From: Protula sp. h YS-2021
Lineage: Eukaryota; Annelida; Polychaeta; Sabellida; Serpulidae
DNA length: 64,000 nt
Reading direction: 5' to 3'
NCBI GenBank assembly: GCA_949752745.1
Contig: OX457026.1
Location: forward strand, 31,203,411 to 31,267,410
Positions 1,991 through 62,931 of the stretch are shown one piece after another. Position numbers and translations under genes: made by a program. Each line of letters begins with the position of its first letter. Position 1 is the first letter of the stretch. The notes under the pieces are model-generated. The model did no database searches and was not told the origin of the DNA. It worked only from the letters and a program-made list of their open reading frames with translations.

Positions 1991-4900
1991 ATTCAGTTTT
2001 TAGCTTTACGCGAATAACCGATTATGCCTCCACAAAAGTCAGTATTAATATTATCTCCAATATGAATGAAGGTTCTCTGAGGGGACAGGGTTGAAATTTA
2101 GCTGAAGAATAACTTCGGTGGGTGGGGCAATGCTATTCGGGAAATATATCTCGGTGCAAAATATGCAACTCCAGTGCACCGTACAAACACTCTTTCATGG
2201 TGCAATCCCTCCATATTTCTATTTATTAACTACAATACAGTCATTTAAAATGTTTTAGCTGTAAAAATATTTAAAAGCTGGCCCGGTTTCAACCGATATA
2301 GAAATGCCAAGTGAACAAAACTAAGCACACTTATATGCATAAGATTTAAAAAGTGATACTCTACGAATTATGAGGTGCAAAAAATGTTAGCTGTAATCCG
2401 GGCGGGGTAGGGGTGGGAGCGGTTGTTTGCAGCCCTAAACACCGAGTAGATACCATTCCAGCCTCTCTCCCCCTTTCTCATTCTTTGTGAACAGTGAATT
2501 TTGTGAGCAGAAACAATCAAGAGAGTGTGAGAAACCTGTTAAGCGACACTAGATTAATTATGAAAGAAAATGGCTTTCATATAAATGGAATCATGGATAA
2601 AGGCCTAAATATGCTTAGAAATTTACAATAGAAGTATAGAATTCCCTCTCCAACGAAACTCATTTCTGAGCGTGGAATAAGCAACGTGTTGCGACAAATA
2701 GGAAATCCTTATTATATGGAAATTGGAATTAAATGCTGGACACCAAATAAAACATTTTCCAGGCGATACCAGTAATCTTGTCTTTGTGAAACTTAATCAA
2801 CGAGGTTGATCGCTCTGTATGGAAAGTAAAATAATAGGGCTTTTTGTAGTTTTTATCCATTGGATTCCTTCATTGAGCGTATTCTAAAGAGGGATTTTTA
2901 CTCAAGAAAACGTTGCCACATAGAAAATGAATATAAGTTGCAATCCCTAAGACCAGCCAAACTCAAACAAATATAGGTCAACTTAAGTTAATGGTTTTCT
3001 AACTCGAAAATACGTTTTAAAGTTCATTGAGGATAAAATACATATAAGACTGACTTCGGATTCAAGATCAGTACGATTTAGTAGCAACATCATTCAATTT
3101 AAACATAGTTAAAAAACTTTAAATCCAAAAGTGATTCAATATTGTTGAATATAGCTATATATAATTGCTAAATGATAAAATCAACAGAAAATAAAATGGA
3201 TGGAATTAAAAATGACATGTCGAACTTGCAAATGGGAAAAATATATTCAAATAAGGTAAGACCATACACTATTAAGTCCTGTTATTTAATAATACATTGC
3301 CTAACATCTGAAATGCTAAGTGGATTTTCAAAATATAAAGCAATTCTTACATTTCTCATAAAAAATTGAAATGTGATAGCCGACGACGTAGCTATTTTAT
3401 GTCATAATTTAATAATTTGAATCATTGCTTGACTGTTGAACTATACCAAAAAAAGCAGTTTTCTATGGTAAATTCAAATATTTAATGGACAAGTTACTCA
3501 TAAAGGTTTATTAAATATTTTCAAGAGATTATAACTCCACTGTCTTTCTCTGTATAGCAATAATTTACTTTAACTTTGTTTGATGTTATCAAATAAATTT
3601 TGTAGAAAATTCGTGCGTCTAAATTATTCTACTTTTAGGTTTATAATTTCATCAAAATTATAACAAGCACTTTTCCACCGTTTTAATGGATGGTTTAAAA
3701 AGTTATAAAATTATTGCTTGTTGATTTCTAGTTCAAATGACCATGATCTGAATGAATTTCTAAGGTCAATCCAACGTCGATTTGAGATTTCGACGCCGAT
3801 CCCTCCCACATCGTCTTACCAACGCCACTAATGCAACATTAAATAAACAAGCATCGTTGATTTTGGTCGCAACCGAAATGCAACTTTCTCCGACATCTAA
3901 TCAATGACTTTGCGTAAGTGTGAATAGACGTCGGAAATTGATGCTGGGTAGACGACGAAAAATCGTCGTTGTATAGACGTTAGAATCACAGCCAAAAAAA
4001 CAACAGCCTTGTATTATCGCTCACCGAAAATGGTAGCCCAGACAGATCATTTTGAAGTAAACCTAAAACGAGGACGTAAAATATGAGAATTTAAAGTTTT
4101 TTTCCCACCCAGTTTTGAAAAATATTCATGGAAATCAACATCACACGTAGTCTGTGCTGCGGGATGACCCAAGTGTGGGCGTAATGTGACTGAGAGTGAA
4201 AACACTGTGACAGTCGTTTTCTCGATGATTCTAGATTAATATTTTCTCAATGCCTATACCACGCGGCTTTCCCCGACGCCTGTACGGCGCCGAGAGATAG
4301 ACGTTGTTTCGACGTCCATTTGCAATCTTTACGCAACGCTGATAAAACGTCGGATAGTGTGCGCCTATCCACATTCCGAAGGCAGATTTCGTTTTGCTTT
4401 CCACAAACAAACAAAACCCAGTTTTGATCCGACATTTTGTGCCACATCTTTCCAGCGTTTTCCAACGTCGCAATGTTTACTGCGGAGATCTAGCGCAAAT
4501 ACCTCTATGTATTTTATTTAACAAAAAGGAAAGATCTTTTAAGCACAACGTGGGCCTAATAAATCTACGAAAATTAATTAAAATTAAAATTAAAATGAAT
4601 AAACGAAAATTGATCTAAGTACAGCTGATTTGACGACCCTATTTTTTGCGCGCATGTTTTTATGTGGATAACTGACCCAGTCACTATGACAGATAAGACA
4701 AGCGTTGGCATTAAACGACATTAAATGGATTTACATTTGTGGCGAGCCATACAGTTTGTGAAGTTGCTGTGTGCAGAGAGAGCTCAAATGCACTCCGAAG
4801 TAGTACATAAGTTGAGTGAGTATCACACCTGCAACTCAGACAGGTTAGGCTTTGCTTTGACATCACTCAAAAGACTATTCTTTATGCATAGCAATAAATT

Positions 4901-5035
4901 GTCCATGTGTGCACTGGTGACGAATGGACTCCGGAGTAGTTGACCCTCAAGTTATATTAAAAAGTGTTTTGTGTTCTTGGAAAATCCTGAAAACCGAGCT
5001 CTAAGCAGGAACTCTTTAAAGGTGTAAGAGCTTAA
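1991..5035. other. Intergenic, AT-rich, with two GACGT-word repeat copies
   Basis: No gene recognised. Copies of the GACGTC/AACGTCGG dispersed repeat lie at about 3770-3990 and 4290-4480. The rest is AT-rich sequence with only short open frames. Confidence 0.5.
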
Positions 5036-5044
5036 AAAATTTTT

Positions 5045-5212
5045 AAAACAGGCACGTTCTTATCTAGGTACATTCCGTCCGGGTGCGTTGTGACCTGGGT
5101 ACGTTCTGTCCCGGGTACGTTATGTCCTGGGCGGCACTTTCTGTAACGGGTACATTTTGTTCTGGGTTCGTTCTGTCCTGGGTACGCTTTGTCCGGGGTT
5201 CGTTCTGTCCTG
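5045..5212 (-). repeat. Word array (GGGTACGTTCTGTCC type), solo
   Basis: About ten imperfect units of about 16 bp with consensus near GGGTACGTTCTGTCCT, differing in the TGTCC-flanking bases. It is built like the inverted ends of the foldback elements at 57-63 kb and 11 kb, but I found no inverted partner nearby. It is probably one surviving end of such an element. Confidence 0.6.
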
Positions 5213-5749
5213 CTCACCCTTTTAAATGCTGAAACAAAGATGACAAATGTAAGAGGGTGTATTTTAAAAAAGTAAAATAAAAAATTATTGTTCAGACATC
5301 AAAGTGATTCAAAGTACCACGTTTGTTCTTGAGCTGCGCAGACATTTCGTATCAAAATCCACAAAGTTCATTTAAACAATGTGGATTTTAATATTGCAGA
5401 GCTCACTCAATGTTATATATTCAAGGCTAGTTTATATACATGATTCCTTTTTACAAACGAAACTTTAAAAAATTCGATCATTTCATTTCTTCGACGGCGT
5501 CCTTAGTTATAAAAAGTCCTATTGTCGCAATCCGGATTTCACGACTGTGTTGGTATTCTTTTCTTCAGATCTTCGCCACGTAAAAAAACCGCTGGATCTT
5601 CGTTACATGGAGCTAAAATATGACTGGTAAAATTCCACGCCAACAATGTACATAATTATATGGATAAATATATAAAAAGCAACGAATGGATGTATTTGCA
5701 TATATTCCAACAAAAGTGTCACTACTAGTTCTTTTATATAATTTTTCAG
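5213..5749. other. Upstream region of the sulfotransferase
   Basis: Non-coding. It ends in a pyrimidine-rich TTTTTCAG directly before the ATG at 5750, which is a good 3' splice-site match. The ATG may therefore open a second exon, with a 5' untranslated exon upstream. No core promoter could be assigned. Confidence 0.4.
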
Positions 5750-7159
5750 ATGAAACTCTGCGGGTTGCTTGTGACAGCAGTGATCCTGGCGTTATTTCTT
5801 GCGCAGGCGACAAACGTAACATTTTACGATCGCGAGGGAGTTAAAATCTCCGCTGTGTTAAAAAGAAACTACACTCTTACAGCTCGAAGTACCCAAGTTT
5901 CAAATTTTGAAAATACTTTCAACCGTTCAAGTTGGCATGTTTATTATTTGAAAGTCCACAAGACCGGAAGTACAACATTTTCCATGCTACTGGCACGTGC
6001 TATTATGACGTATGGCTTAACACATGCAGCATTCCATCCCAGAGACCCGTACCCAACGCGAGAAATAGCACGGTATTTATTACCAAGAAATACATCAGGA
6101 TTACAAAAGAAGAAGCATCTTGAAACGGAGTCTCGTGACGTCATGTATGTGCACAGTTTATTTGTGGAGTCGGAAATTCGAAAATTCATGCCAGCCGATA
6201 CAGCATTCATTGCGACCTGTCGGCATCCTTTTGACCAACTCAAGTCATCATTTTACCATTATAATTTACCACGGAAATTTAATTTACCGAAAGTGAACGA
6301 TCCGTTTGAATTGTTTTTATCGAATATGGCTAAATATGATAAACCTAATGTTATGCTTTCCAAAGCCACTCACGCAATAAGTGGTTTCCATGACAAAGTA
6401 TCCTGTACGAAAAACAGAATGGCTTATGACTTTGGTTTGAAACTACATAAAAAGGATAACAAAACCTATGTTGAGGAGTACTTAAAGTATCTCCAAAATA
6501 CCTTCACCAGTGTGATTATCACGGAGTATTATGATGCCTCATTGTTGTTGTTAAGAAAGAAAATGTCATGGTCATATAAAGATATTATTTATCTTCCTCT
6601 ACGTGTCTCGTCCAAGTATAACCACTCTCTGTCGCCGAGGGAACAATACTCGCGGTTTATCCCCGCCCATGAACAATGGTCGGACTTGGACTATCAAATT
6701 TACAACATGTTTTTGAATAAGCACGAAGCCGAAGTCAAGACATTGGGCATCAGTTTTCAACGTGAGTTGAAATATTTTAAAGAAATACTACAAAATATTC
6801 GCACGTTTTGTTCAAGCATTTGTACTGAGATGCACAAAATGAAAAAATCAAATGTGACTGGCTTTATACAAAGCATACACGAGAAATTTATATATATAGA
6901 AACAAATGAGTTTCATTCAAGTTTTTCTTTAAGTGGTACAGACTGTGTAATGCTCATGCTTAGCAGTAAAGTGTGGAACTGGACCGTAAATACTTTCGTT
7001 TATCAAAGTCTTTGCTCTGCATCAAGTGCTATTCGCAAAAAATTTAATATCGTAAAAAAATTTTGTCCAAACAACAACGATAAATTTGTGTATAACATAC
7101 CAATGAAAATATTTGATGATCTGAGTGACAAACATTTTTTATTTCAATGTGACCGGTAA
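5750..7159 (+). CDS. Galactose 3-O-sulfotransferase-like protein
   Basis: Intact 469-codon frame for a Golgi type II membrane sulfotransferase of the Gal3ST family, which transfers sulfate from PAPS to the 3-OH of galactose on glycolipids or glycans. Residues 1-20 form a short hydrophobic signal-anchor. Residues 67-77 (YLKVHKTGSTT) match the family's 5'-phosphosulfate-binding loop with its lysine. Residues 153-170 (IATCRHP..QLKSSF) match the 3'-phosphate-binding site, with Arg158 and Ser166/167. N-glycosylation sequons are present, for example at 22, 40 and 58. The length fits the family. A splice-acceptor-like TTTTTCAG abuts the ATG, so an upstream non-coding exon is likely; the coding part appears intronless. 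Substrate (cerebroside or glycoprotein galactose) cannot be told. The family call is firm on motifs; exact orthology is not claimed. Confidence 0.85.
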   Translation: MKLCGLLVTAVILALFLAQATNVTFYDREGVKISAVLKRNYTLTARSTQVSNFENTFNRSSWHVYYLKVHKTGSTTFSMLLARAIMTYGLTHAAFHPRDPYPTREIARYLLPRNTSGLQKKKHLETESRDVMYVHSLFVESEIRKFMPADTAFIATCRHPFDQLKSSFYHYNLPRKFNLPKVNDPFELFLSNMAKYDKPNVMLSKATHAISGFHDKVSCTKNRMAYDFGLKLHKKDNKTYVEEYLKYLQNTFTSVIITEYYDASLLLLRKKMSWSYKDIIYLPLRVSSKYNHSLSPREQYSRFIPAHEQWSDLDYQIYNMFLNKHEAEVKTLGISFQRELKYFKEILQNIRTFCSSICTEMHKMKKSNVTGFIQSIHEKFIYIETNEFHSSFSLSGTDCVMLMLSSKVWNWTVNTFVYQSLCSASSAIRKKFNIVKKFCPNNNDKFVYNIPMKIFDDLSDKHFLFQCDR

Positions 7160-7210
7160 ACAGTAAAAGTCACTGGACAGAGAAAACAAGGGGCTAATCA
7201 TGAGAATTAA

Positions 7211-7606
7211 GATATTGACTTGTTTTGAGTCAACATTTAGTAGATATTGACTTGCTTTGAGTCAACATTTAGTAGATATTGACTTGTTTTGAGTCAACAT
7301 TTAGTAGATATTGGCTTGTTTTGAGTCAACATTTAGTAGATATTGACTTGTTTTGAGTCAACATTTAGTAGATACTGACTTGTTTTGAGTCAACATTTAG
7401 TAGATATTGACTTGTTTTGAGTCAGCATTTAGTAGATATTGACTTGTTTTGAGTCAACATTTAGTAGATATTGACTTGTTTTGAGTCAACATTTAGTAGA
7501 TATTGGCTTGTTTTGAGTTAACATTTAGCAGATATTGACTTGTTTTGAGTTAACATTTAGCAGATATTATCTTGTTTTGAGTCAACATTTAGCAGATATT
7601 GTCTTG
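7211..7606 (+). repeat. 32-bp minisatellite, about 12 copies
   Basis: Tandem units of 32 bp built on GATATTGACTTGTTTTGAG plus TCAACATTTAGTA. They are nearly identical in the middle and more diverged toward the 3' edge. The array starts about 50 bp after the sulfotransferase stop codon, so it probably lies in the 3' UTR or just past it. A single related piece (TCGTTTTGAGTCAACAT) recurs near 8328. Confidence 0.9.
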
Positions 7607-7740
7607 TGAATCGTCGGATCAGATTCCAGCATTTTCATGTCGAGTAACAATTGCAGATGGTTTGTAAGGTGTGTGGATGCGAATCCCGGACAAAAGTTAA
7701 AACAAAATAACCTACCACTCATCGCTACTTGAAAGTAAAA

Positions 7741-13919: not shown

Positions 13920-15797
13920 GATTCCAGGACCAGAGTAAGTTATAAGCATATTCCCTGATAGTAAAGACCAAAAAGAGGATGTTGTATCTGACCTCAATAT
14001 TGAAGTATCAGTATCTTTAATGCAGGTCACTTAAGCACGAACTGTACAACTTGCCCCGTAGTACTCTTGGCCAGCTTTGAAGTGCATTTGTGTCCATAGA
14101 AATAGAACACATACAGCAGAACTTGGGTGAGAAACTGTAACAGCACTTATGGGCGCTGCTAGTGGCGAAAGGGAGCTTCACCTCTGTGTGAGCCAAAAAA
14201 AAACGTATAATTGACTTCTGAAAAAAAGTTGGATGGGCTGATAGCGCCAAAGGTGTGTTTATCCCGTTGCTTCGGATCTCTGTCGGTGAAGTATTAAGGT
14301 ATTATTGTTTATGGATTTGACCATTACTTCTTGAAACGAAGAAATATGTTGTACATTGTTTCATGAAGTACGGATTGATGAAATACTTTTAAGAATTATA
14401 CAACAGGAAAAAGATTTGAAGAAACTGTTCCTAGAGGTAAGCTCTTTAATACGTTTCTCTCTAATGTAGAATTTTCACCAAAAAAAGGTTCACAGTCTTT
14501 TTCTATAAAACCTAGACAATACATGACCAGAGTTTATGGAACGGAATCTTACTTTCTTAGCGAGAACCTTATTCTGAAATATTAAACACTTGGCCAAAAA
14601 TAATATTTTACAATCATTTTCTCCCTTCGAGAAGAAGTGTTCAAAACTTTTCAGCCTGATTTTAACTTTCTTTTCCTTTGCAGACAAGCCAATGTCTTTT
14701 TTTCGGATTCCGAAACCTTTTTGGCCATTTTACTTACTCTATGAAACGGCATCCCTCACCCATCCCCTAGAATCACCAAGAATTGTGTGTAACTGAATCT
14801 GGAAATTTATATGAACATTAAGTATCACTTAAAATGACCAGAAAAGATTTGGCATCCACGCGTCGTACCACCGTCAATGGCATGCCACTAAACTCCCCGT
14901 ATTTTGCGTATGCGAAAATAAAAACCAAGGTTCACATCTTCAGATCAAATACCACATATGTGCGAAATTTGGGGGTCCTAGGGTCAGTTTGGTCAGAGGA
15001 GTACTACAGATAGAAATGACGGACCAGTAAAGAGAAAAAAAGATCCAGAACATCGGCCCCGGACAACTTCAGTATGCTCTATGCAAGCCTTTGACTTCCC
15101 AAGTGTAAATCACCTACTTTTTTCTTTTGTTTCTCTGTCTGTTCCTCTTTTTTTTACTTTTAATCTTTATCTTTTTATTTCATTTTCAAGATCAAATACC
15201 AGTGTTTATCAGCACAGAACAATAGAATAAAAAACATGAAGATAAGTCAAACACAATCTGTCAATCATAGCACTTTCGGACCCACATCAAGCGTCTGCTT
15301 AAAGAGCAATCGACGGGTTCAAAAACTCTTGTTTGATATGACAACACAGTGATATGATTCTAGAAATGTCAAGTTTCATTGAACAAAAACAACAAAGCTG
15401 TACAAGTCATTTTTTAATTAGTGGTGCCTCAGATTTCTGCAAATTTCGCGAATTTGTTCACGGTATGCACACCGATCCCTTCATTTTCTGGGCATGAAAA
15501 TCAGTCATTCTAGTTCTTATTCTTTTACCAAAGTTTCTTCCATTTTAGTGGTCACATTGTAAAAGTTATCATTATCAATAAATAGATCATTTCCTTTAAC
15601 TGGGCTTTAGTGTCCAGTTGAAAATGGTGACAAAGTTCAAAATTTATTTTAAAAAATTACACATAGCCATCGTAAATGACTGACATAATGACGAAAAACA
15701 TGACAATTTCAGGAGCGTGCAAGTTGTTTCCCCATAGAGTTTATTAAAAAAAAATGAAATAGGCTTCACACATATACTGCGGTAGCGGATAATCGAA
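13920..15797. other. Intergenic, nothing recognised
   Basis: About 1.9 kb with no supported gene, transposon protein or repeat array. Confidence 0.4.
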
Positions 15798-16339
15798 GGG
15801 TGAGGTACTGTGACGGAGGGTGACCACACTGTCCAAGGGTGAGGTACTGTGGCGGAGGGTGACCACACTGTCCAAGGGTGAGGCACTGTGACGGAGGGTG
15901 ACCACACTGTCCAAGGGTGAGGCACTGTGACGGAGGGTGACCACACTGTCCAAGGGTGAGGTACTGTGACGGAGGGTGACCACACTGTTCAAAGGTGAGG
16001 TACTGTGACGGAGGGTGACCACACTGTCCAAGGGTGAGGTACTGTGGCGGAGGGTGACCACACTGTCCAAGGGTGAGGTACTGTGACGGAGGGTGACCAC
16101 ACTGTCCAAGGGTGAGGTACTGTGAAGGAGGGTGACCACACTGTCCAAGGGTGAGGTACTGTGACGGAGGGTGACCACACTGTTCAAGGGTGAGGTACTG
16201 TGACGGAGGGCGACCACACTGTTCAAGGGTGGAGGTACTGTGACGGAGGGTGACCACACTGTTGAAGGGTGAGGTACTGTGACGGAGAGGTGACCACACT
16301 GTTGAAGGGTGAGGTACTGTGACGGAGGTTGACCACACT
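15798..16339. repeat. 39-bp minisatellite, about 14 copies
   Basis: Units of 39 bp: GGTGAGGTACTGTGACGGAG followed by GGTGACCACACTGTCCAAG. One-base variants include GGTACTGTGGCGG, and indels near 16230 and 16290 shift the register. Because 39 is a multiple of three and no stop lies in the unit, all three minus-strand frames stay open as 13-residue repeats. I read these frames as a consequence of the repeat, not as a gene. Confidence 0.95.
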
Positions 16340-37350: not shown

Positions 37351-37579
37351 TTACAGGTCATGGAATCCCTTTTAGGTCTGCTAGTGGCAACAGAAAAGGC
37401 GGTCCCTCTGGGTCGTCTCCATTACAGGCCATTCCAAGCCAAGTGAAATGGGCATTGCATCAGGGTCGTTCAGCCACAGCCAAAATGCAAGTTTCACAGG
37501 TAGCCCTACAAACCCTACAGTGGTGGTGCGATGTGCAGGTCATGTCCGAAGGGATGCCGTTTCAGCCCCCACCCCAGAG

Positions 37580-37965
37580 ATAGAGATTCAAACAGACGCA
37601 TCCCACTCGGGGTGGGGAATTTATTGGCACGGTCAGGTATGGAAGGAGAAGTGGCCTCCCTCTCTCCAGACTTATCACATAAATTGGTTGGAGCTCGGGG
37701 TAGTTTGGATTGCCCTGACCAAATTGACCAACCACTCAGAAACAAAGCAGTCCTGTTTCGGTTAGATAATTCCGCAGCCATAGCTTATATGAACAAGCAG
37801 GAAGGTACCAAATCACGGTCCCTTTCAAAACTAGCATTTCAGATTCTCACCAGGGCCCGAGAGGAACAGATAACCGTCTCAGCCCGTCATCTGGTCAGGA
37901 AACTAAACGTTCTAGCGGACTTAGCTTCCAGACAAGGTCAAGTAATAAACACCGAATGGTTGCTC
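37580..37965 (+). pseudogene. DIRS copy 1 RNase H
   Basis: RNase H domain with its acidic residues in order: EIQTDASHSGWGIY (Asp), YHINWLELGVVW (Glu), FRLDNSAAIAYMNKQEG (Asp) and LNVLADLASRQ (Asp). A single frameshift near 37690-37750 separates the second from the third. Downstream LDLFANAMTVQLPRYVS and FPP-like sequence match the usual DIRS extension between RNase H and recombinase. I do not see a methyltransferase domain. Confidence 0.85.
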
Positions 37966-38529
37966 TCTCATCGGTCGTTTCAATGGGCAACACACCAGTC
38001 ACCATGGAGTTCCCGGACACTGGATCTGTTTGCAAATGCTATGACGGTCCAACTTCCCCGGTACGTGTCTCCCTGCCAGGATCTAGCATCCCGGACTGCC
38101 TCAATTGTCAGTGGCCATGGGACGAAGTTCTGTGTATGCATTTCCCCCATAGGCAATCTTAGGGCAAGTATTGCAAAGGGTAATCGAGTTGAAACCACCG
38201 TATCTACTACTCATTGCCCCATGGGCACCGGAAGCTCCATGGTTAGCCCTCCTACTCCATTGCAAGATAGTGAGATCGATACAGATCCCATGCTACAGGG
38301 AGTTGCTATCAGAACCCCACTAGCAACATTTCCACCCCTCCCGACACTTACTGAACCTGCACCTTTGGTGTCTGACCAGTCCTTCTTGAGGAACAAGGGC
38401 TTCTTCAGACAGGTGAGGGAAAAAATAGTAAACAGTCATAAGGGCTCTCGTCTAAGGTTTGCAGGTCTCAGTGGAATAAGTTAGCCACCTGGTGTAGCAG
38501 CTCTAAGCTGGCCCGTTTCAGGCTAGCCC

Positions 38530-41279: not shown

Positions 41280-41724
41280 CTAGTTCTTCGCCAAGCACAA
41301 GATCGAGTCTGTGTATGAATTAGGGGTCTTCTCGTACACAAAATGCGCGAAAAACATAGATGGGGTCTTCCAACGGCCGATGCGTCTGACTTTATCCGGA
41401 TCTAGCCCTGATTCGACTGCCTGAGTCGCCGCTGACGGTCTGAAACACGTGGCAGAGTATAAACTAATGTCTAACCCTGCAAGATAGATGGCGTCCTCTA
41501 GCATGGTTGACACGGTACTCGCTGTGATAGCCTTATGGGGCTTTTTCACAGACAGAAACACTGGCTTGGCAATCACATGGGCGTATGTGATCTGTGCGTC
41601 GTATATATGTACGCAATGCAGACACGGGGTCGATCTTTTGCACAGATGATAGGGGAATAGTCACCGAAAACCCGTCTGTATGAGTGTCGCCATTAGATAA
41701 CTGTTTACGTTCTGGTGAAGACAT
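41280..41724 (-). pseudogene. Divergent tyrosine recombinase of an RT-less unit
   Basis: Two overlapping frames, joined by a shift near 41545, give one recombinase-like protein. The N-terminal piece includes PVSALRTYIRRTDHIRP. The C-terminal piece includes KAITASTVSTMLEDAIYLAG, then TCFRPSAATQAVESGL (R-x-x-A-A-T box), then DKVRRIGRWKTPSMFFAHFVY with the conserved Gly-Arg-Trp and a terminal Tyr. The box sequence differs sharply from the KAHQ.RRVANSL type of the DIRS copies here and is closer in style to Crypton/Ngaro-type recombinases. Family placement is uncertain. Confidence 0.65.
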
Positions 41725-43660: not shown

Positions 43661-44957
43661 GTCGATGCGTGGAATAGAATTCTAAACATAGCCGATATCA
43701 GTGAACAAGTGCTGGAACCCAAAGGTTCGGAGATCGAAGAAAACAAAATGGATAACCAAAGTAAAACCGTCCCAGATATATCTACGGAAAACGGTGAGAT
43801 ATTTAATGGCATATCCAGAGAAAATGACCATAAAAACGGCACCTTCGAAAATTGAAACAAAGGCTAAAGGGAAAAGTCCTAAAAAGAGAAGCACGTTAAC
43901 TGCCGTCAGGAAGAGAAAAAAATTGACGCAAAATTTGAGGAAAGTGAAGAATGTGAGGAGGAATGCGAAGACTGTCAGGTATTTTAAAAAATTGAAAAGA
44001 AAATGGAGATTACAGTAGACAGTTTGTTTGAAAGAATAGTAAAAAAGTGGAATACAAGCTAGACGAAAAGCTTACAGAAATGACTGAAAAAGCGGGAAAA
44101 AGCTTCTAGCTAAAATAGGCAACATTATAGACGATAAAATAAATGCTCAAACTGAACGGTTGGATAAACGAATAGACTCTGTGTGTACAAAACTGGATAT
44201 TTATCAATCAGCGACGATGGTCATTAGCGATCGCGTTGATGAGCTATCGAGCAGGAGCATGCCTCACAATTTAAATTACAGACTTGAAGCAATTGAAAAC
44301 ACTCTGTCAGAGGACAATGGCGTAGCTGAGCTGCGAATGAAATTACACAGTGTACAGATGCAAGTAAAGGCCATGTCAAAGGACATTGAACATAAAGCTG
44401 AGACCCTAAAAATGCATGGTCGCAAACTTAACGTTGTCTTCAAAGGAATTGCACAAAAAGAAGGTAAAAACTGTTTGCAACTAGTAGAATGTATCATCAG
44501 GAAAGAAATGCATCTGGACATTAGAAATGGGATAAATATAACCCACCGCCTAGCTCAGCCTAATGCCACAAAACCACCGGGAATAATAGTGCGCTTTAAG
44601 ACAGTGACGGATAGAAGCAAGGTGCTACAAAATGGCCACCTTTTGAGAGGAACCAGTGTGTTCGTGCGACCGGACCTGCCACAGACCTACCTACAACGAC
44701 GTGAATTTCTGGCAAAATTCCTACCGGGCGCTAGATTGGTCAACCCCAAAGTCAAGCTGGTGAGAGATAAACTCACATCTCGTGGTCGTTTTTATACAGT
44801 TGAGAACATTCACCAAGCTGGCATAACAGGTCACGGACATACAGATTCCACTGAGACTCGGGTCAGATTCTATGGGTATTTATCTCCATTCAGCATTTTT
44901 TTTATATCGCCAGTGGAAATGGATGGCATGGTCTTCAATTGCGTTGAACAAGCATAA
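43661..44957 (+). pseudogene. LINE ORF1 (coiled coil, RRM, CTD)
   Basis: RNA-binding ORF1 protein. The N-terminal part is in two frames: SVDAWNRILNIADISEQVLE (43663-), then shifts near 43850 and 44040-44110. The frame 44160-44957 holds a coiled-coil stretch (IENTLSEDNGVAELRMKL, SVQMQVKAMSKDIEHKAETL). An RRM-like domain follows (KLNVVFKGIAQKEG, then ITHRL, then PGIIVRFKTVTDRSKVLQ). After that comes the L1-type C-terminal domain (GTSVFVRPDLPQTYLQRREF, then KLTSRGRFYTVENI). This order and these motifs are typical of L1/Tx1 ORF1. The frame then continues without a break into the NADAR-like domain. Confidence 0.85.
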
Positions 44958-45225
44958 AAATGTCAAAAAACTAATCGAAATAGAAATTTTCTGGTGGCTC
45001 AGCAGATTCTGAAAGAATCTAATCCTGCTATCATGAGAATCAGAAAATTAGACATACTGGAATTTGGGGGTGAAAATCACATGGGGTCCATTCTCGAGGA
45101 AGTCAGAGGGCAGCTAGCAAACCAGACATTGGTGTAATTTAAAAGGTGCGATGCTTGGCTCGGGCATTGTGTTTGACAGGGACCGCAAGGTTGAAGTAAA
45201 TTTAATCAGGGTCTGAGATTCCGAT
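44859..45225 (+). pseudogene. NADAR/YbiA-like domain fused to LINE ORF1
   Basis: In frame with the ORF1 C-terminal domain: RFYGYLSPFSIFFISPVEMD, then MVFNCVEQA, a stop at 44955, and in the same frame RNFLVAQQILKESNPAIM and ENHMGSILEEVRGQLANQTL. NADAR (DUF1768, YbiA-like) proteins show this pattern: LSNF-P-S-P-hydrophobic-G-F-x-x-V/A-E-Q/H-A, then A..IL..x..P..., then W....M...L..K...N..L. The conserved Glu of the EQA motif is present. The final W-G-I-G segment is not recognisable; sequence after 45136 is frameshifted. Family members act on ADP-ribose- or riboflavin-pathway-type N-glycosidic bonds, and some reverse guanine ADP-ribosylation. A role in this element is inference. Confidence 0.7.
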
Positions 45226-46612
45226 AGATTCGCATAACAAGTCACAAGTATAGATGTCAAAATGAATGATTAAAAACATTGTTGGCTATTAGCGCAGTGG
45301 AGCGTGGAATTATGCCAGAGCCAAATATCAACAACATGTGCATGCATGCGAAATAAGTGAAGCGTTAATAAGTGGTATGATGTGAGCGGTTATCCATGGG
45401 GTATATTACACAATTACATAAAGTTTCTTTTTACACCGGTAGAGGTAAATGCACCGCTTGCATCAGACCATATTAACGGTTTGTTGGCAGGTGCTGAAAG
45501 ACACAAATATTCTGAACCTATGTTGGTAAATTTATATTCTATGGATAACGTTATAATGTTAAATTATAGGTACATATATATGCATGTAAAACCATTTAAG
45601 CGCCTTAAAATAGTTGAGCGTAGTAAAGACCATCCATGGAATATATTCCCATCTAAACAGTAAAAAGTGCATTCGGAATGGAACCCATAGAATATTCTGA
45701 CCGTATGTGGCCAAGTTTAGATTCCATGGGTACCTTTATGTTATTAAATTACCAGAATAAATGCATGCATGTAAAACCAGCGGAATGTTCTGAGAATGTA
45801 GTACGGTCTTCCATCAAATACATTGCAGTGTAGCAGGGACTTCCATGGAATATAATCTCATATAAATAAACATTTTCAAACTGACGCAGACCAATTTGCC
45901 ACTCACAAAGGAACACGAATACACGGCACGTGCCTGCAGGCAGGGGTAACAATACTAGTATGTGCATTTCAGTTAGGGTGTAAAAAAGCCAATATATCTA
46001 GCATACATTCCATGGGTGACCATGTAATAGAGATATTAACATACAAAAAAGCACGAGGCGTATCTGATATTATCTTATTAGCATTAGGTTAAAACACACA
46101 GTATATACTTATACAGGTAAACCGAGCGTTTGCTCTAAAAAGGAGTGTTTGAAGATGGTGTATATCCATGGAAAACATTACAAAATTACTACAGAATTAC
46201 TCTCTGCAAACTTTCAAAACTTCGTGAAGGAGCGCTGTATTAAAACCATATTGTATATTATTGTTCTATTGACAACTAGCTGATAGCTCATACTCAGATT
46301 CCATAAATAGGCCACCAAAACATGTAATGTAACCATACTCAGAAACATACCTATTATTGTTTTGCTATCATGAAATAGTTCATGGCGAAAATTCATAATA
46401 TACCCTTTAAGTCCAATGTTTTAACATATTAGAAACACCCTAAACACAACCACACAAGGACACAATGAATGTGTTACATGAATCGACACTCACTACATTT
46501 AATTTCTACTTTTTGGGTATAAACAGGGTATTTAAAGGGCAGGCTCTCACTATGGTGCCTTTGCATCTTGCAGGAAGCTGGTATGTTGCAAAAACAGACG
46601 CAGACATTACTT
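45226..46612 (+). other. Inter-ORF region of the LINE, degenerate repeat
   Basis: Not coding for a recognised protein. TCCATGGAATAT-like words recur at about 45394, 45632, 45839 and 46165, each followed by an AT-rich AATTACATAAA-like tail. This suggests three to four degenerate units of roughly 220-300 bp. A short frame at 45382-45663 spans the first unit. Confidence 0.45.
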
Positions 46613-46965
46613 ATGGCTAGTCTTACAGTTGTAAGCTATAATATGCGTGAAGGAAGAAATATTCCCAAAAGAATCTGCATTCTTGAATTTTTAAAACGCA
46701 AAAATGCGGACTTTCTGTTTCTGCAAGAGACGCACGCATTTGAGGAAGACTTGAACAGCTGGCTAAACATCTGGGTGCGGGTAACATATGGCTTAACCCA
46801 GGTACGACCAGAAGCGCAGGACAAGCTATTCTAACAACTCAAAACTTAACAATAATAGAACACAAGATTGTAATGGATGGTAGATTGCATGTCCTTAAAT
46901 TGCACAGAACAGGTTTCATGAGCGATCATTCAGTCATTGAGTTGGTCATTACGCTAGGGGCTAAT
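46613..46965 (+). pseudogene. LINE ORF2 endonuclease, internally deleted
   Basis: The ATG at 46613 opens MASLTVVSYNMREGRN, then KNADFLFLQETHAFEED: the Asn and Glu motifs of the L1 AP-like endonuclease, which nicks target DNA. After a frameshift near 46780, GTTRSAGQAILTTQNLTIIE follows. It then jumps straight to RTGFMSDHSVIE, the C-terminal Ser-Asp-His motif. The central part, normally carrying the N-x-Y and G-D-F-N motifs (roughly 120-140 residues), is absent, so this copy could not have nicked DNA itself. Confidence 0.85.
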
Positions 46966-49941
46966 AAAAGAGGACCGGGTCTTTGGAAGCTTAATTCGAG
47001 TATAATCATGGAAGATGATTACAAAAACAATATGCAATCACCAATAGACCAAGTAAGGGAGGAAAATATAAGCGATTTAAGACTAAAATTTGACTGGCTA
47101 AAACACAACATAATGACTTACTCCATAACCTACTGCAAGAAAAGGTGTAAGGCAAATAGAGAGCGGGAAAATAACCTTAGGTTTCGACTCAAATGCATTG
47201 ATACAAAAATTTGTAAGGGAACAGCCAGTGATAATGAAATAACCCATTTTAATGATTTAAAAACGGATCTTGAAACTTTCGAAATAGAGAAAGCCAGAGG
47301 AGCTTGGATACGTTCCAGGCTCCAGCACATCGAATTGAATGAAAAAAGCAATGCATTCTTTTCTAACCGGTCCAAGACTAGCTATGAGAAGAAAACCATC
47401 AGTAAATTAAATACCAGCAATGGTGAAATAAACGACCCTAAACAAATACTTCAAGAAATACAGACATACTATGAATATCTATATAGCTCAAAGAAAACCA
47501 ATACATCTAATCTTTTCAACGAACTTAATATACCAAGGATTCAAAAGGAATCTTGCGAGGGTACAATCACTCTACAAGAATGTCATGAAGAATTCAGTCT
47601 AAACAAATCGCTTGGAAGTGAAGGCTAACCGTTGAGTTCTACCAAGCTTTTTGGGAACAAATTGGTCCGAAGCTGGCTGCCTGCTTAAACTATTCCCTTC
47701 AAAAGGGAGAATTATCTATGTCACAAAGAAGGGGAGTGATAGTATTGTTAGAGAAAAAAAAGGGAAAGATAGTACTCAAATTAAAAACTGGAGACCAGTA
47801 TCACTTCTCAATATAAACTATAAAATACTCACCAAGACACTGGCAAAAGGTTAGCAAAACACATCTCTACGGTTATTCACTCAGACCAAGCGGGGTTTAT
47901 AAAAGGGAGATATATAGGGGAAAATAGTAGATTTGTTGAAGATGTTATAGCAATATATGACGCTTACAATCTACCTGGCCTTCTGTTACAGCTGGATTTT
48001 GAAAAGGCTTTTGACTCAATAGAATGGCCCTTTCTATTTTCTACATTGCGAAAGTTTAACCTAGGAAGCAATTTTATAACATGGATAAAGTGCTGCTACA
48101 CTAATATTTTCAGTTGTGTTAGCAACAATGGTTATAATACCGATTGGTTTCAGTTACATCATGGCATGCGCCAGGGTTGCCCGCTGTCAAGTCTTCTTTT
48201 CATTATGTGCGCAGAAATTTTGGGTATTATGATACGTGCAAATGATGACATTATAGGATTAAATATAGGAAACAAAATGCATAAAATTAAACAATTTGCA
48301 GATGACTGGACATGCATGGTAAGAACTATCCCATCCATTTACACGCTAATTGAAACCATCCGCGGTTTTTCCAAAGTTTTCAGGGCTGAAATTAAACACC
48401 GAGAAATGCTGTATCTTTTATCTAGGATGCTGGAGGGACAAAAATGACAAAATTTTAAATGTGAATGTTGTAAAGGGTTCTTTCGATATGCTGGGAGTAC
48501 ATGTAGGGCGAAATGAGTCGGTAAAAAAGCAGAAAAATTTTGATGATAAAGTCAAAAACTTAACCGCTTTACTTAATCAGCACAGGCAAAGAGAATTAAG
48601 TATTTGTGGTAAAATTCTATTTACAAAAACGTTCGGTGTGTCAAAATTTGTGCATACATTCTCGATTGTCGAAGCTAATACTGAAATAAAGAAACAGGTA
48701 CAACAAGATATAAACTCCTTTCTGTGGAAATCTAAACCCCCAAAAGTAAAACACACGGTTTTTATTCGACAGTATAATGAGGGGGCTCAGAGCGGTAGAT
48801 GCAGAATGCACAGTGAAGGCCCTGAGAATGCCTTGGCTGGGGCGAATTATTTCAGGCACTGGATGGACGGACACTGCCCATCAATATTTCGAACCCATGG
48901 GAGGACTATTGTTCCTCCTAAGGTGTAACTACCATGTTGATAGTCTTCCTACGATTCCGGCCTTTTATACAAAAATATGATTCGATACGCAGCTGAAACT
49001 ATTCGCCATCAAAACTCTGAGCATGTGTTGTGGAACAATCAATTCATTGTCGCGGGTCAACAAAGCCTATTTATTAAAGAGTGGTATGAAAAAGGGGTGG
49101 TGTACATACAAGATCTGTTAAAAGATGACGGCTCCTGGTTGTCGTTTGAAGCCTTTTCTTCAAAATTCAATATACGAGTAAACTTCCTTTGATACATGGG
49201 AGTGGTCAGTGCTGTTAGAAATGCGATAAAAAACACCCATTGATAAGCCATGCCTTAACCACTCCCACACCCAGTATCAACTTCAACAGCTATAATTTTA
49301 CACTAAAAAGTGGGAAAAGGGTTAATTTAGCTAACACGAAAAGCTGGGATTTCTATTGGGATTTCATCAATCTTATTAAATCTCCGCCCGCTAACATTAT
49401 AAAATGGCGCGATGAATTAAATGTGCAAGAAGATGTAATACATAGAAGTTTAACACTCGCTAGAAGATCGGTAAAAGAACCAAAATTGCTCGCGTTACAA
49501 TTTAAAATTGTACACAATGTAATCAATTGTGGCTCAAATTTGGTAAAGTGGAAAATAAAGGAAGACGATACATGTCATTTGTGTAATTTAACAAGAGATG
49601 CATTAATGCATGCATTAATTGATTGTCCCACAACTAAAGAGTGGATTCGAGAAATTTGTAATAGAATAAACCCTACAGAAAATATTGTAATATCACCTAT
49701 GGAATTTTTCTTTGGTGTCGAGAATTCAGCCCTGAATCTAATGCTTATGGTAATAAAAAACTACATTTGCATAATGCGAGGATACAACAAATTTGAGTCG
49801 CCCTTCGTCATCATGAATGAAATATACAAAAGAATACATGTTGATAAGCAATCGCTTTCGGTGAAAAATTTCAATAAAAAATGGGGAAATTATGCATCAC
49901 TATGCCATAAAAGTAAACGTTTTATTCAGCAGTATTTCTGA
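46966..49941 (+). pseudogene. LINE ORF2 linker, reverse transcriptase and C-terminus
   Basis: Linker (46966-47560) is followed by the RT in two to four frames: TVEFYQAFWEQIGPKLA (47630-), IKNWRPVSLLNINYKIL (47785-), DQAGFIKGRYIGENSRF (47884-), LLQLDFEKAFDSIEW with the first catalytic Asp (47987-), HHGMRQGCPLSSLLFI (48155-) and KQFADDW with the F-A-D-D catalytic pair (48290-48310). Shifts occur near 47625, 47730, 47850 and 48385. The C-terminal part is shredded at 48780-49240, then open to 49941 with a C-x2-C...H...C finger (DTCHLCN...HALIDC, 49570-49630). The RT motifs themselves are all present. Confidence 0.88.
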
Positions 49942-50595
49942 GAGATGTTATAGGTGCTGGTGAGAGCCTGGACACATAAAGGGGCAGGGGAGAGGGTTCT
50001 CTATTCACTTCGGCGTTTTCTTTTTATTATTCATTTAAAAAAACTTTCTAAATGGACAAAATCAAGTAATTTAAACTTGGTGTTATGATATGCTTGTACG
50101 TTATTATTGTATGCAAGTTTGATTATGTATTTTATATTTATAAAGAGAATAAAGGGAAAATAATTCTGCCTACCTCCATTACCTCCCCCCCCCCCCTCAA
50201 TCCTTTGCGTAAGCGTATCTTTGCTTTTTCGCCCGCTTCCTTCCCCATCTTCCTCCCTCCTTTGCTGCATTAGGTTTTGATGTTATTATAGTTTTGTTTT
50301 TCTATGCCACGCTCGCTCCAGACATCACTTGTCGTTTTAATGCGTAAGTTTCATCCTTCCCAGCCTGGTCTCTCTTTTCTTCTCATTATTTGTGTGTAAG
50401 GTATATGTAGGACATTTGTTGTCTTTGTTGCCCCCCCCCTCCCCCATCCCACTCCCTTCTCCTATTGTACTTATAAAATGTATACGTTACTTCTTAATTA
50501 TACAGCCCTTCTGTCTGGATACCATTTCATGCTTATATACAAATTCAACATTTCATCCCTAATCCTTGACCTCGGATGTTGATTCGAGTGCAGAC
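49942..50595 (+). other. LINE 3' UTR, C/T-rich
   Basis: Non-coding, with CCCTCC-type runs (50187-50198, 50432-50450) and AATAAAG at about 50145. Long pyrimidine-rich 3' UTRs are usual for L1-type elements. The exact 3' end is not clear. Confidence 0.5.
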
Positions 50596-51163: not shown

Positions 51164-51294
51164 CATGATTGACGAGAAACAGAAACGCGCCACATGGGGT
51201 TCTAAGGCTGATTTCCTTCTTACCTGTATTGGATGGTGTGTTGGCTTGTCAAATGTTTGGAGATTTCCGTATCTGTGTTACAAGAACGGTGGAG
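51164..51294 (+). CDS. SLC6 transporter exon 1 (TM1)
   Basis: Sodium- and chloride-dependent neurotransmitter/amino-acid symporter of the SLC6 family, plasma membrane. The ATG at 51164 opens [19 protein letters not shown], then TM1 [20 protein letters not shown]. The unwound NVWRFPY segment that binds sodium and substrate is intact. The residue equal to the Asp of monoamine transporters is Gly, as in glycine and GABA-type members, so an amino-acid-like substrate is likely. The exon ends GGAG|GTAGGC at 51294 in phase 1. The N-terminus would be unusually short from this Met. The exon may instead continue from an upstream exon through the TTTAAAGGTAG acceptor-like site. Confidence 0.85.
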
Positions 51295-51812
51295 GTAGGC
51301 TGTCTTTTAGTTCTATTTTGCTATCACTGCTTGTATTTTAGATAACAAAACATTATTTTTGAGATCAAAAATCAACTTTATATACTTAAAATTCTTAAAT
51401 TCTTAAAATTCGTTAACTTACTTTTAGAGATGTAATTTATTAATATCAACAAAAGCAACACAATTATTGAGCTCAAGAAATGTTATTTCTATATTGCATC
51501 AAATAAAGATTTGTCGGTTTTTGTAGCATAGTATGTTTAAATAAAACAATTAAAATTTAGTTATGAAAATTAACCAGGTCAGTCAGCCATCTTTTTATAT
51601 TTTCAAAGCACTGTCAGTAGAAATTCAGCGATCTTTTTCAAATTTTACGAGTTTCTATCACCCTACAGTCATAAACTTTGACCATTTCCAAGACAAACTA
51701 CCCCCACACTACCAACTATCGTGTCATTGAAATAATAATAAAAAATTATGTGATTATATTGGCTCATAATTTTCAATGTTCATACCCTTTCTAAAACACG
51801 TGCATTTTGCAG

Positions 51813-62042: not shown

Positions 62043-62931
62043 GGGAACCGGACAAAATACCACCGGACATAATACCACCGGACAAAACACCACCGGACAT
62101 AATACCACCAAGGAAATGAAAACTAGGACAAAATACAACCAAAGATATCTTTTTATTATAAAGCGTAACAACGCAGACTGGCAGGGGTCCAGTCATGCAA
62201 GCATCTGAAAAAGGCGCGAAACGGAGACGGCTTAGGGCTTATAAGAGATACACACTCACGTGGCTCAACATGCAGCGTAATAAACCCAGACAGGGTGGTA
62301 GGTCGCAGGGAATAAGAGCAAATACTCCATTCTGTCATTATTGATAAGGGATTACCATAGCGCGAGACTTCTCGCATATAAATAGGGCACTAAAATGAGC
62401 AGAATTTAAACCAATATCAACAGCAATAAACCACTTCAATAAACTAACTAGGATCTACAAAAAAAATGGAAATAATTACATCCCAAAAGTTATAGTAAAG
62501 TAGAATGTCCTCAGTGAATGTAATTTCACGTTTGTTTTAGTTACATTCAGTTATAAATAGCTTCGGTGATCAGAGAAAGCAATAAAAGATTGTGGTGGTA
62601 TTTTGTCCTAGTTTTCATTTCCTTGGAGGTATTATGTCCGGTGGTATTTTGTACGGTGGTATTATGTCCGGTGGTATTTTGTACGGTGGTATTATGTCCG
62701 GTGGTATTTTGTCCGGTGGTATTTTGTACGGTGGTATTATGTCCGGTGGTATTTTGTACGGTGGTATTATGTCCGGTGGTATTTTGTACGGTGGTATTAT
62801 GTCCGGTGGTATTTTGTACGGTGGTATTATGTCCGGTGGTATTTTGTACGGTGGTATTATGTCCGGTGGTATTTTGTCCGGTGGTATTTTGTACGGTGGT
62901 ATTATGTCCGGTGGTATTTTGCCCTACACCC
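62043..62931. mobile_element. Foldback element A, copy 2, with expanded right arm
   Basis: 889 bp, same ends and interior as copy 1. It is flanked by a perfect 9-bp duplication GATGTCGAT (62034-62042, 62932-62940). The right arm is expanded to about 20 tandem 15-bp words (62622-62920), alternating GGTGGTATTATGTCC and GGTGGTATTTTGTAC; the left arm has only about five. The long open frames across the array are by-products of the 15-bp period. Confidence 0.9.

Follow-up and report, generated by a model that had tools for sequence, protein, structure and literature searches.

The LINE copy in the window

The window, a stretch of 64 kb (C3:31203411-31267410), contains on its forward strand a broken L1-like LINE whose ORF1 ends in the remnant of a NADAR domain. 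The parts of this element, with the evidence by which each was placed, are as follows:

43821..45137 (+): broken L1-like LINE ORF1 with coiled coil, RRM, C-terminal domain and NADAR remnant; matched from 43821 by tblastn with the ORF1 of locus L020
44871..45134 (+): NADAR remnant, in frame with ORF1; the PF08719 match starts at residue 261 of P0001, which is position 44871; also placed by TIGR02464 and by alignment to L016 and L028
44955..44957 (+): premature TAA within NADAR; the frame is open across this point in three relatives (ORFs of 409-512 aa)
45039..45041 (+): junction of an in-frame deletion of about 192 bp net, with loss of the positions of E125 and D130; placed by split matches at query 640/642 and by block coordinates
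45135..45137 (+): natural ORF1 stop (TAA), level with the ORF1 end in L016 and L070
45138..46612 (+): stretch separating ORF1 from ORF2, with six CCATGG sites; in L031 the two ORFs are about 1.26 kb apart
46613..49896 (+): broken ORF2 (parts of the endonuclease, reverse transcriptase and C-terminal part) in several frames; tblastn with the ORF2s of L031 and L032

For profile searches the frame at 44091-45134 was translated with X at stops. It leads from the coiled-coil, RRM and C-terminal part of ORF1 into the NADAR blocks, and the order of blocks given in the first-pass annotation of this DNA was correct. That annotation had also described ORF1 as running into NADAR without a break, which did not hold: the TAA at 44955 lies between the second and third blocks, and about 192 bp are missing at 45039-45041. 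Of the extent it had given to the domain (44859..45225), positions 44871-45134 are NADAR, but 45138-45225 are not, the domain ending with the ORF1 stop.

The remnant matched NCBIfam TIGR02464 at 6.7e-8 (32.9 bits, against a curated cut-off of 73.7) and Pfam PF08719 at 8.7e-4 (20 bits, against 35.1). Because both bit scores fall under the curated cut-offs, the window copy alone is not callable as a NADAR under Pfam or NCBIfam rules. When the 599-aa ORF1 of locus L028 was used in tblastn, it matched 44100-45038 with an E value of 8.9e-80, a stretch that takes in the C-terminal domain and reaches 56 residues into NADAR; the final 30 residues (45045-45134) matched the L016 ORF1 at 60%. E43 and K50 are present in the remnant and E125 is deleted. 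With a stop at 44955 and active-site residues deleted, the window copy is dead.

The 5' end of the element was not found within the window copy and its true end lies upstream of 43821; on the 3' side there is only an AATAAA, at 50148. A search for a target-site duplication around the LINE gave nothing convincing, an 11-bp A-rich match being the only one and left unused, and an Rfam scan of the window gave no family at the gathering score.

We compared the window copy with its own family. A DNA search of the same genome with window positions 44400-45300 gave 31 matches from 19 candidates, the window itself counted, and the relatives matched in two pieces of 85-96% identity with a common break point. 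Seven relatives (L070-L076), 88-94% identical to the window in the first piece, were fetched; close relatives align across the whole queried stretch from 43500 onward. At the break the window has 1 bp against 193 bp in five of them (L070, L071, L073, L074 and L075) and 192 bp in L076; against L072, with 190 bp, it has 10. All seven kept the segment, so that among the copies read the window copy alone has the deletion of about 192 bp. The missing segment includes the sites equivalent to E125 and D130 in the P. nicotianae NADAR.

Several family members are better preserved. In L070 the frame stays open for 512 aa, beginning at the coiled coil and reaching the end of NADAR, and E43, K50, K75, E125 and D130 are all present by eye. 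L071 and L072 have open frames of 412 and 409 aa, and L074 and L075 have 167-aa frames spanning NADAR. The same scan found no such ORF1/NADAR frame in L073 or L076; the PF08719 match at the L073 locus contains two stops. Four members of the family scored over the Pfam cut-off: C2:65218942 (94 bits), C4:29255622 (92.5), C4:91438044 (93.8) and C9:7704654 (90.4, with two stops).

Other features of the window were recorded in passing. The six CCATGG sites between ORF1 and ORF2 lie at 45394-46166, and the whole window has 20; the seven close relatives have 4-7 per fetched stretch, L031 has one, behind ORF2, and L032 has none. A galactose-3-O-sulfotransferase-like ORF lies at 5729-7159 (+) (PF06990, 1.1e-29). 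A tyrosine-recombinase-like ORF at 41283-41660 (-) (PF00589, 2.7e-5, under the cut-off) and an ORF at 37504-38484 (+), resembling by eye the RNase H part of a DIRS-type element, are possibly one decayed element. Positions 51200-51341 (+) resemble an SLC6 transporter exon by eye, and tandem arrays lie at 15796-16339 (39-bp units), 7210-7607 (32-bp) and 62628-62921 (15-bp).

NADAR-bearing elements in the genome and in other sources

A well-preserved element, L031, has an ORF1 at 732-2528 (599 aa stop to stop) with NADAR at residues 453-598 (1.6e-28), about 1.26 kb between the ORFs, and an ORF2 at 3796-7488 (1231 aa) with Exo_endo_phos (5.4e-12) and RVT_1 (5.5e-37) domains; a zf-RVT match (5.2e-5) was under its cut-off. 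Its 3' end reads AATAAATAAA, followed by poly-A. The closest solved structure to this ORF2 is human L1 ORF2p (3.7e-85). In a second family, L032, the ORF1-NADAR has 421 aa, and ORF2 is divided between two frames that overlap. A profile built from ten ORF1s matched two NADAR structures (7.2e-29 and 4.2e-23) and LINE-1 ORF1p (4.4e-8). In having an ORF2 with APE endonuclease and reverse transcriptase (in L031) and an ORF1 with coiled coil, RRM and C-terminal domain, the element agrees with LINEs of the L1 superfamily. The clade name Tx1 is taken for it from PMC12477816.

An AlphaFold2 model of P0003, a protein of the same kind from another source, had low overall confidence (mean pLDDT 57, pTM 0.31), with blocks at pLDDT 66-90 over residues 401-490 and 25-37 over residues 491-520. 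A Foldseek search with this model gave eight PDB matches at E <= 0.001: E. coli YbiA (2b3w, 2.9e-5), the P. nicotianae NADAR (8bau, 1.4e-4) and six L1 ORF1p chains.

A search of the whole 863-Mb genome with PF08719 gave 2193 first-look candidates. The best 150 were scored and 150/150 were over the Pfam cut-off, 129 of them without an internal stop (counted by hand); these counts are lower bounds that favor intact copies, as only the best candidates were scored, and the window copy is outside the 150. The PF08719 search of the window that the first-pass annotation suggested gave a match under the cut-off; the relatives scored over it. ORF1-like sequence lay directly upstream of NADAR at all 30 best loci, many of which are near-copies of each other and of which L013 (8.8e-14) and L017 (1.5e-16) had the weakest ORF1 matches. 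Among 20 further loci, hand-picked from rank 31 to about 104, it was found at 18 and was absent at L060 and L063; it was weak at L051 and L067 and spread over two frames at L053 and L062. The linkage was counted from NADAR matches outward, and LINEs of the same clade without NADAR may exist.

The fusion is also found in other sources. When residues 300-599 of the L031 ORF1 were compared with 5.8 billion proteins, there were four matches, P0003-P0006, of 533-588 aa and 47-48% identity; each has coiled-coil/RRM-like sequence followed by a Pfam NADAR and comes from a source other than this genome. A NADAR-only query against the same proteins gave one fragment, P0007.

The broken state of the window copy and its scores under both curated cut-offs are what would be expected if a LINE had met a NADAR-like stretch in a chance or one-off junction. 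Copies 88-94% identical to the window have the same junction, however; the fusion is present in 14 sequence clusters from this genome and in 3 from elsewhere, and ORF1 lies upstream at 30/30 of the best loci. A chance junction is refuted by these family copies, clusters and counts, and we give it practically no credence. The ORF1-NADAR fusion is real and common to many LINE families. In this the first-pass annotation, which had proposed a NADAR fused to an L1-type ORF1 and a search for the same domain order elsewhere, was borne out: the order recurs at many loci of this genome (30/30 and 18/20) and in P0003-P0006, in 17 clusters altogether.

NADAR was also found outside LINEs. Eleven other loci, picked mostly for odd frame length or low rank, comprised two LINEs (L041, L047), two broken Gypsy-type copies with Pol upstream (L040, L045), three with an SGNH/GDSL-like domain (L039, L046, L048), three with a zinc knuckle (L042-L044) and one RS-rich protein (L038). 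Some of these loci may be host genes. The principal frames of these kinds are:

L033:2962-5901 and L035:2937-5711: third ORF with NADAR and TatD, Gypsy-type
L039:1240-2280 (-), L046:775-1647 and L048:589-1452 (-): SGNH/GDSL-like domain with NADAR, GDSL under the Pfam cut-off in all three
L042:1017-1607, L043, L044 and L063: zinc-knuckle-like Cys/His motif followed by NADAR (by eye)

In L033 and L035, which were read in part, a third ORF (979 and 924 aa, respectively) comes after a Pol-like ORF and has NADAR towards the N-terminus and a TatD nuclease at the C-terminus (9.8e-24 and 1.1e-33 in L033). We use the label Gypsy-type on the basis of the reverse transcriptase, RNase H and integrase domains of L033. 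By hand-matched lists there are 19 open frames of 924-1122 aa with both NADAR and TatD, these two being the ones read, and the two domains also occur together in P0008, a protein of 858 aa from another source. LTRs were not located: the 3' part of the Gypsy-type element had no match in the 4.5 kb before L033. One dedicated, limited literature search found no paper on NADAR-TatD elements of this type. L039 adjoins a histone H2A-like ORF, and an ORF upstream in L042 resembles the zinc-finger end of a reverse transcriptase, both by eye. A PF01026 search of the genome gave 112 TatD matches. Several of them lie in open frames without NADAR that recur at the same length (467, 487 and 456 aa), as if other repeats had spread TatD too.

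A small tree placed the NADARs of the Gypsy-type elements together with the zinc-knuckle, RS-rich and one SGNH-like form (support 100), apart from the LINE NADARs; the unity of the latter was unsupported, with L003 and L006 weakly placed. The tree suggests that the two groups may have been recruited separately. The Gypsy-type copies read in this genome have Ala in place of D130 and His or Cys in place of R79.

Active site and selection

Active-site conservation was examined in 55 LINE NADARs (51 from this genome and 4 from other sources, without the window copy and its close family), which form 17 clusters at 80% identity, 14 of this genome and 3 of other sources. Residue positions were mapped from PMC11543638 in P. 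nicotianae numbering. The results were the following: E43 was kept in 54/55; the K50 position was K or R in 53/55 (K in 32, R in 21); K75 was kept in 55/55, E125 in 54/55 (one being truncated) and D130 in 52/55; and the R79 position was K or R in 47/55 and lost in the other 8. By cluster, E43, K75 and E125 were kept in 17/17. The exceptions at key residues include V for K50 in L013, and C and N for D130 in L017 and L058, respectively. According to PMC11543638, an E. coli C7 enzyme with K95R, the equivalent of K50, still hydrolyses in vitro and gives no rescue from DarT1.

Three residues at which the P. nicotianae enzyme binds ADP-ribose, Y84, W89 and R93, were not kept in the LINE alignment, where this loop aligns poorly; in some families a Trp lies one or a few columns away. 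Substrate binding may thus differ in detail from that of the P. nicotianae enzyme. The variable loop residues, and the few families lacking a key residue (L013, L017 and L058), would agree with a NADAR that serves ORF1p as a binding or structural part and has no catalysis. That reading we consider very unlikely in view of the retention of E43, K75 and E125 in every cluster.

Selection was measured between families. For L070 against four other families, pS was 0.79-0.90 and pN 0.31-0.33 in NADAR; in 160 aligned codons before NADAR, pS was 0.78-0.92 and pN 0.27-0.31. By these values purifying selection acts on the LINE NADAR nearly as strongly as on the RNA-binding part; a test for such selection had been proposed at first pass. 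Within families, the NADAR dN/dS was 0.28 and 0.17 in two pairs of the window's own family and 0.3-1.0 in five other close pairs; because close pairs have few changes each, the argument rests on the between-family comparison. The earlier suggestion that the element may carry an enzyme can be retained for the relatives, with their active-site residues and purifying selection, but not for the window copy, whose active site is partly lost.

Distances in the RRM/C-terminal domain and in NADAR were correlated across 11 proteins (Mantel r 0.84, 5000 permutations, p 2e-4), as expected of an old fusion inherited as one piece; individual branches differ between the two trees and have weak support. A recent capture by one element was considered and rejected, because the families are only about 50% identical in NADAR, synonymous sites are saturated and the distances of the parts agree. 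When NADAR was compared with phages by tblastn, 688 of 50,697 records matched, and the best among the matches listed had 34.6% identity; for that reason no donor of the domain is named.

Proposed role and comparison with known systems

Our preferred reading, to which we give even chances, is that ORF1p carries an ADP-ribosyl hydrolase that would clean the element's RNA or cDNA of host-placed ADP-ribose. Fusion, spread, active-site residues, purifying selection and joint divergence are the observations described above, and to these we add activity and substrate as what we infer. ORF1p would coat the element's RNA and place the NADAR beside the RNA and nascent cDNA. There the NADAR would hydrolyse ADP-ribose that host ADP-ribosyltransferases had attached to guanine (or to RNA ends), leaving reverse transcription free to proceed. 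A clam-type guanine-N2 transferase of the CARP-1 kind would be the most concrete candidate for the opposing enzyme, should the host be a bivalve.

The mark and the eraser are each known chemistry. An activity that ADP-ribosylates DNA at guanine N2 is described from six edible clams, with CARP-1 cloned from one of them (PMC11209040), and NADARs, an oomycete YbiA-type enzyme included, hydrolyse guanine-ADP-ribose (PMC11543638). These two reports make a counter-defense by reversal of ADP-ribosylation more plausible; the mark and the eraser might meet in this animal. The authors of PMC11543638 offer NADARs as erasers of the CARP-1 mark as an assumption, not as something shown, and PMC11125620 calls the roles of animal NADARs unclear.

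The NADAR might instead be a housekeeping RNA-processing module that strips ADPr-derived groups from element RNA with no host conflict. RNA processing is the role suggested in PMC12477816 for the Ectocarpus and C. gigas elements, and the match to the ORF1p profile is in keeping with RNA binding by L1 ORF1. We think this unlikely, since a housekeeping role alone leaves the NADARs in other element types of the same genome unexplained. Alternatively, the NADAR may act on small ADP-ribose- or NAD-derived signals of host immunity and not on nucleic acid. Although such substrates are preferred for many viral NADARs in PMC9503650, the same source allows macromolecular targets in animal RNA viruses, and a domain joined to an RNA-binding protein would be expected to have its substrate close to the element's RNA; we regard this explanation as quite unlikely.

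A broader form of the hydrolase reading is possible but doubtful: NADAR would be a shared tool of retroelements (LINE ORF1, the Gypsy-type third ORF and the SGNH-like and zinc-knuckle forms), selected in different lineages to undo host guanine ADP-ribosylation of RNA or cDNA, and thus an answer by transposons to an animal anti-transposon defense. Active LINE NADARs would mean that an animal retrotransposon has its own eraser of nucleic-acid ADP-ribosylation. They would also give animal NADARs a natural setting and make the guanine ADP-ribosylation found in clams (PMC11209040) a possible anti-transposon defense. Well-preserved copies at several loci make this directly testable.

A LINE ORF1-NADAR fusion is already known in kind. 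In one sentence, PMC12477816 reports that several Tx1 LINE families from Crassostrea gigas in Repbase have NADAR in ORF1; these likewise have a YbiA-type NADAR in a LINE ORF1 and, by their description, are very likely of the same kind as ours. That paper gives the LINE fusion this single sentence, whereas here the spread of copies in another genome dataset, active-site retention, selection and the L1-type ORF1 parts were measured, and other NADAR-bearing elements were added. The same paper (2025) describes one Gypsy lineage of Ectocarpus whose Pol contains NADAR; the Gypsy-type elements here have it in a separate third ORF with TatD. With human L1 ORF1p the element has coiled coil, RRM and C-terminal domain in common (4.4e-8), and with ORF2p the ORF2 (3.7e-85), but neither matched L1 ORF1p structure extends over the NADAR part. 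The esterase in a non-LTR retrotransposon ORF1, for which a lipid role is suggested (PMC3905857), is an earlier example of a LINE ORF1 with an enzyme domain, although the enzyme is a different one. E. coli YbiA and the P. nicotianae NADAR (2b3w, 8bau) share the fold and active-site residues of the LINE NADARs, but they are stand-alone proteins and differ in the loop residues of the ADP-ribose site. The NADARs of DarT1-NADAR toxin-antitoxin systems, for which hydrolysis of guanine-ADPr is known, have the E43 and K50 positions in common with the LINE NADARs; at the E125 position the transposable-element NADARs have Glu, as in the YbiA type, whereas those linked to DarT1 have Asp (PMC11543638).
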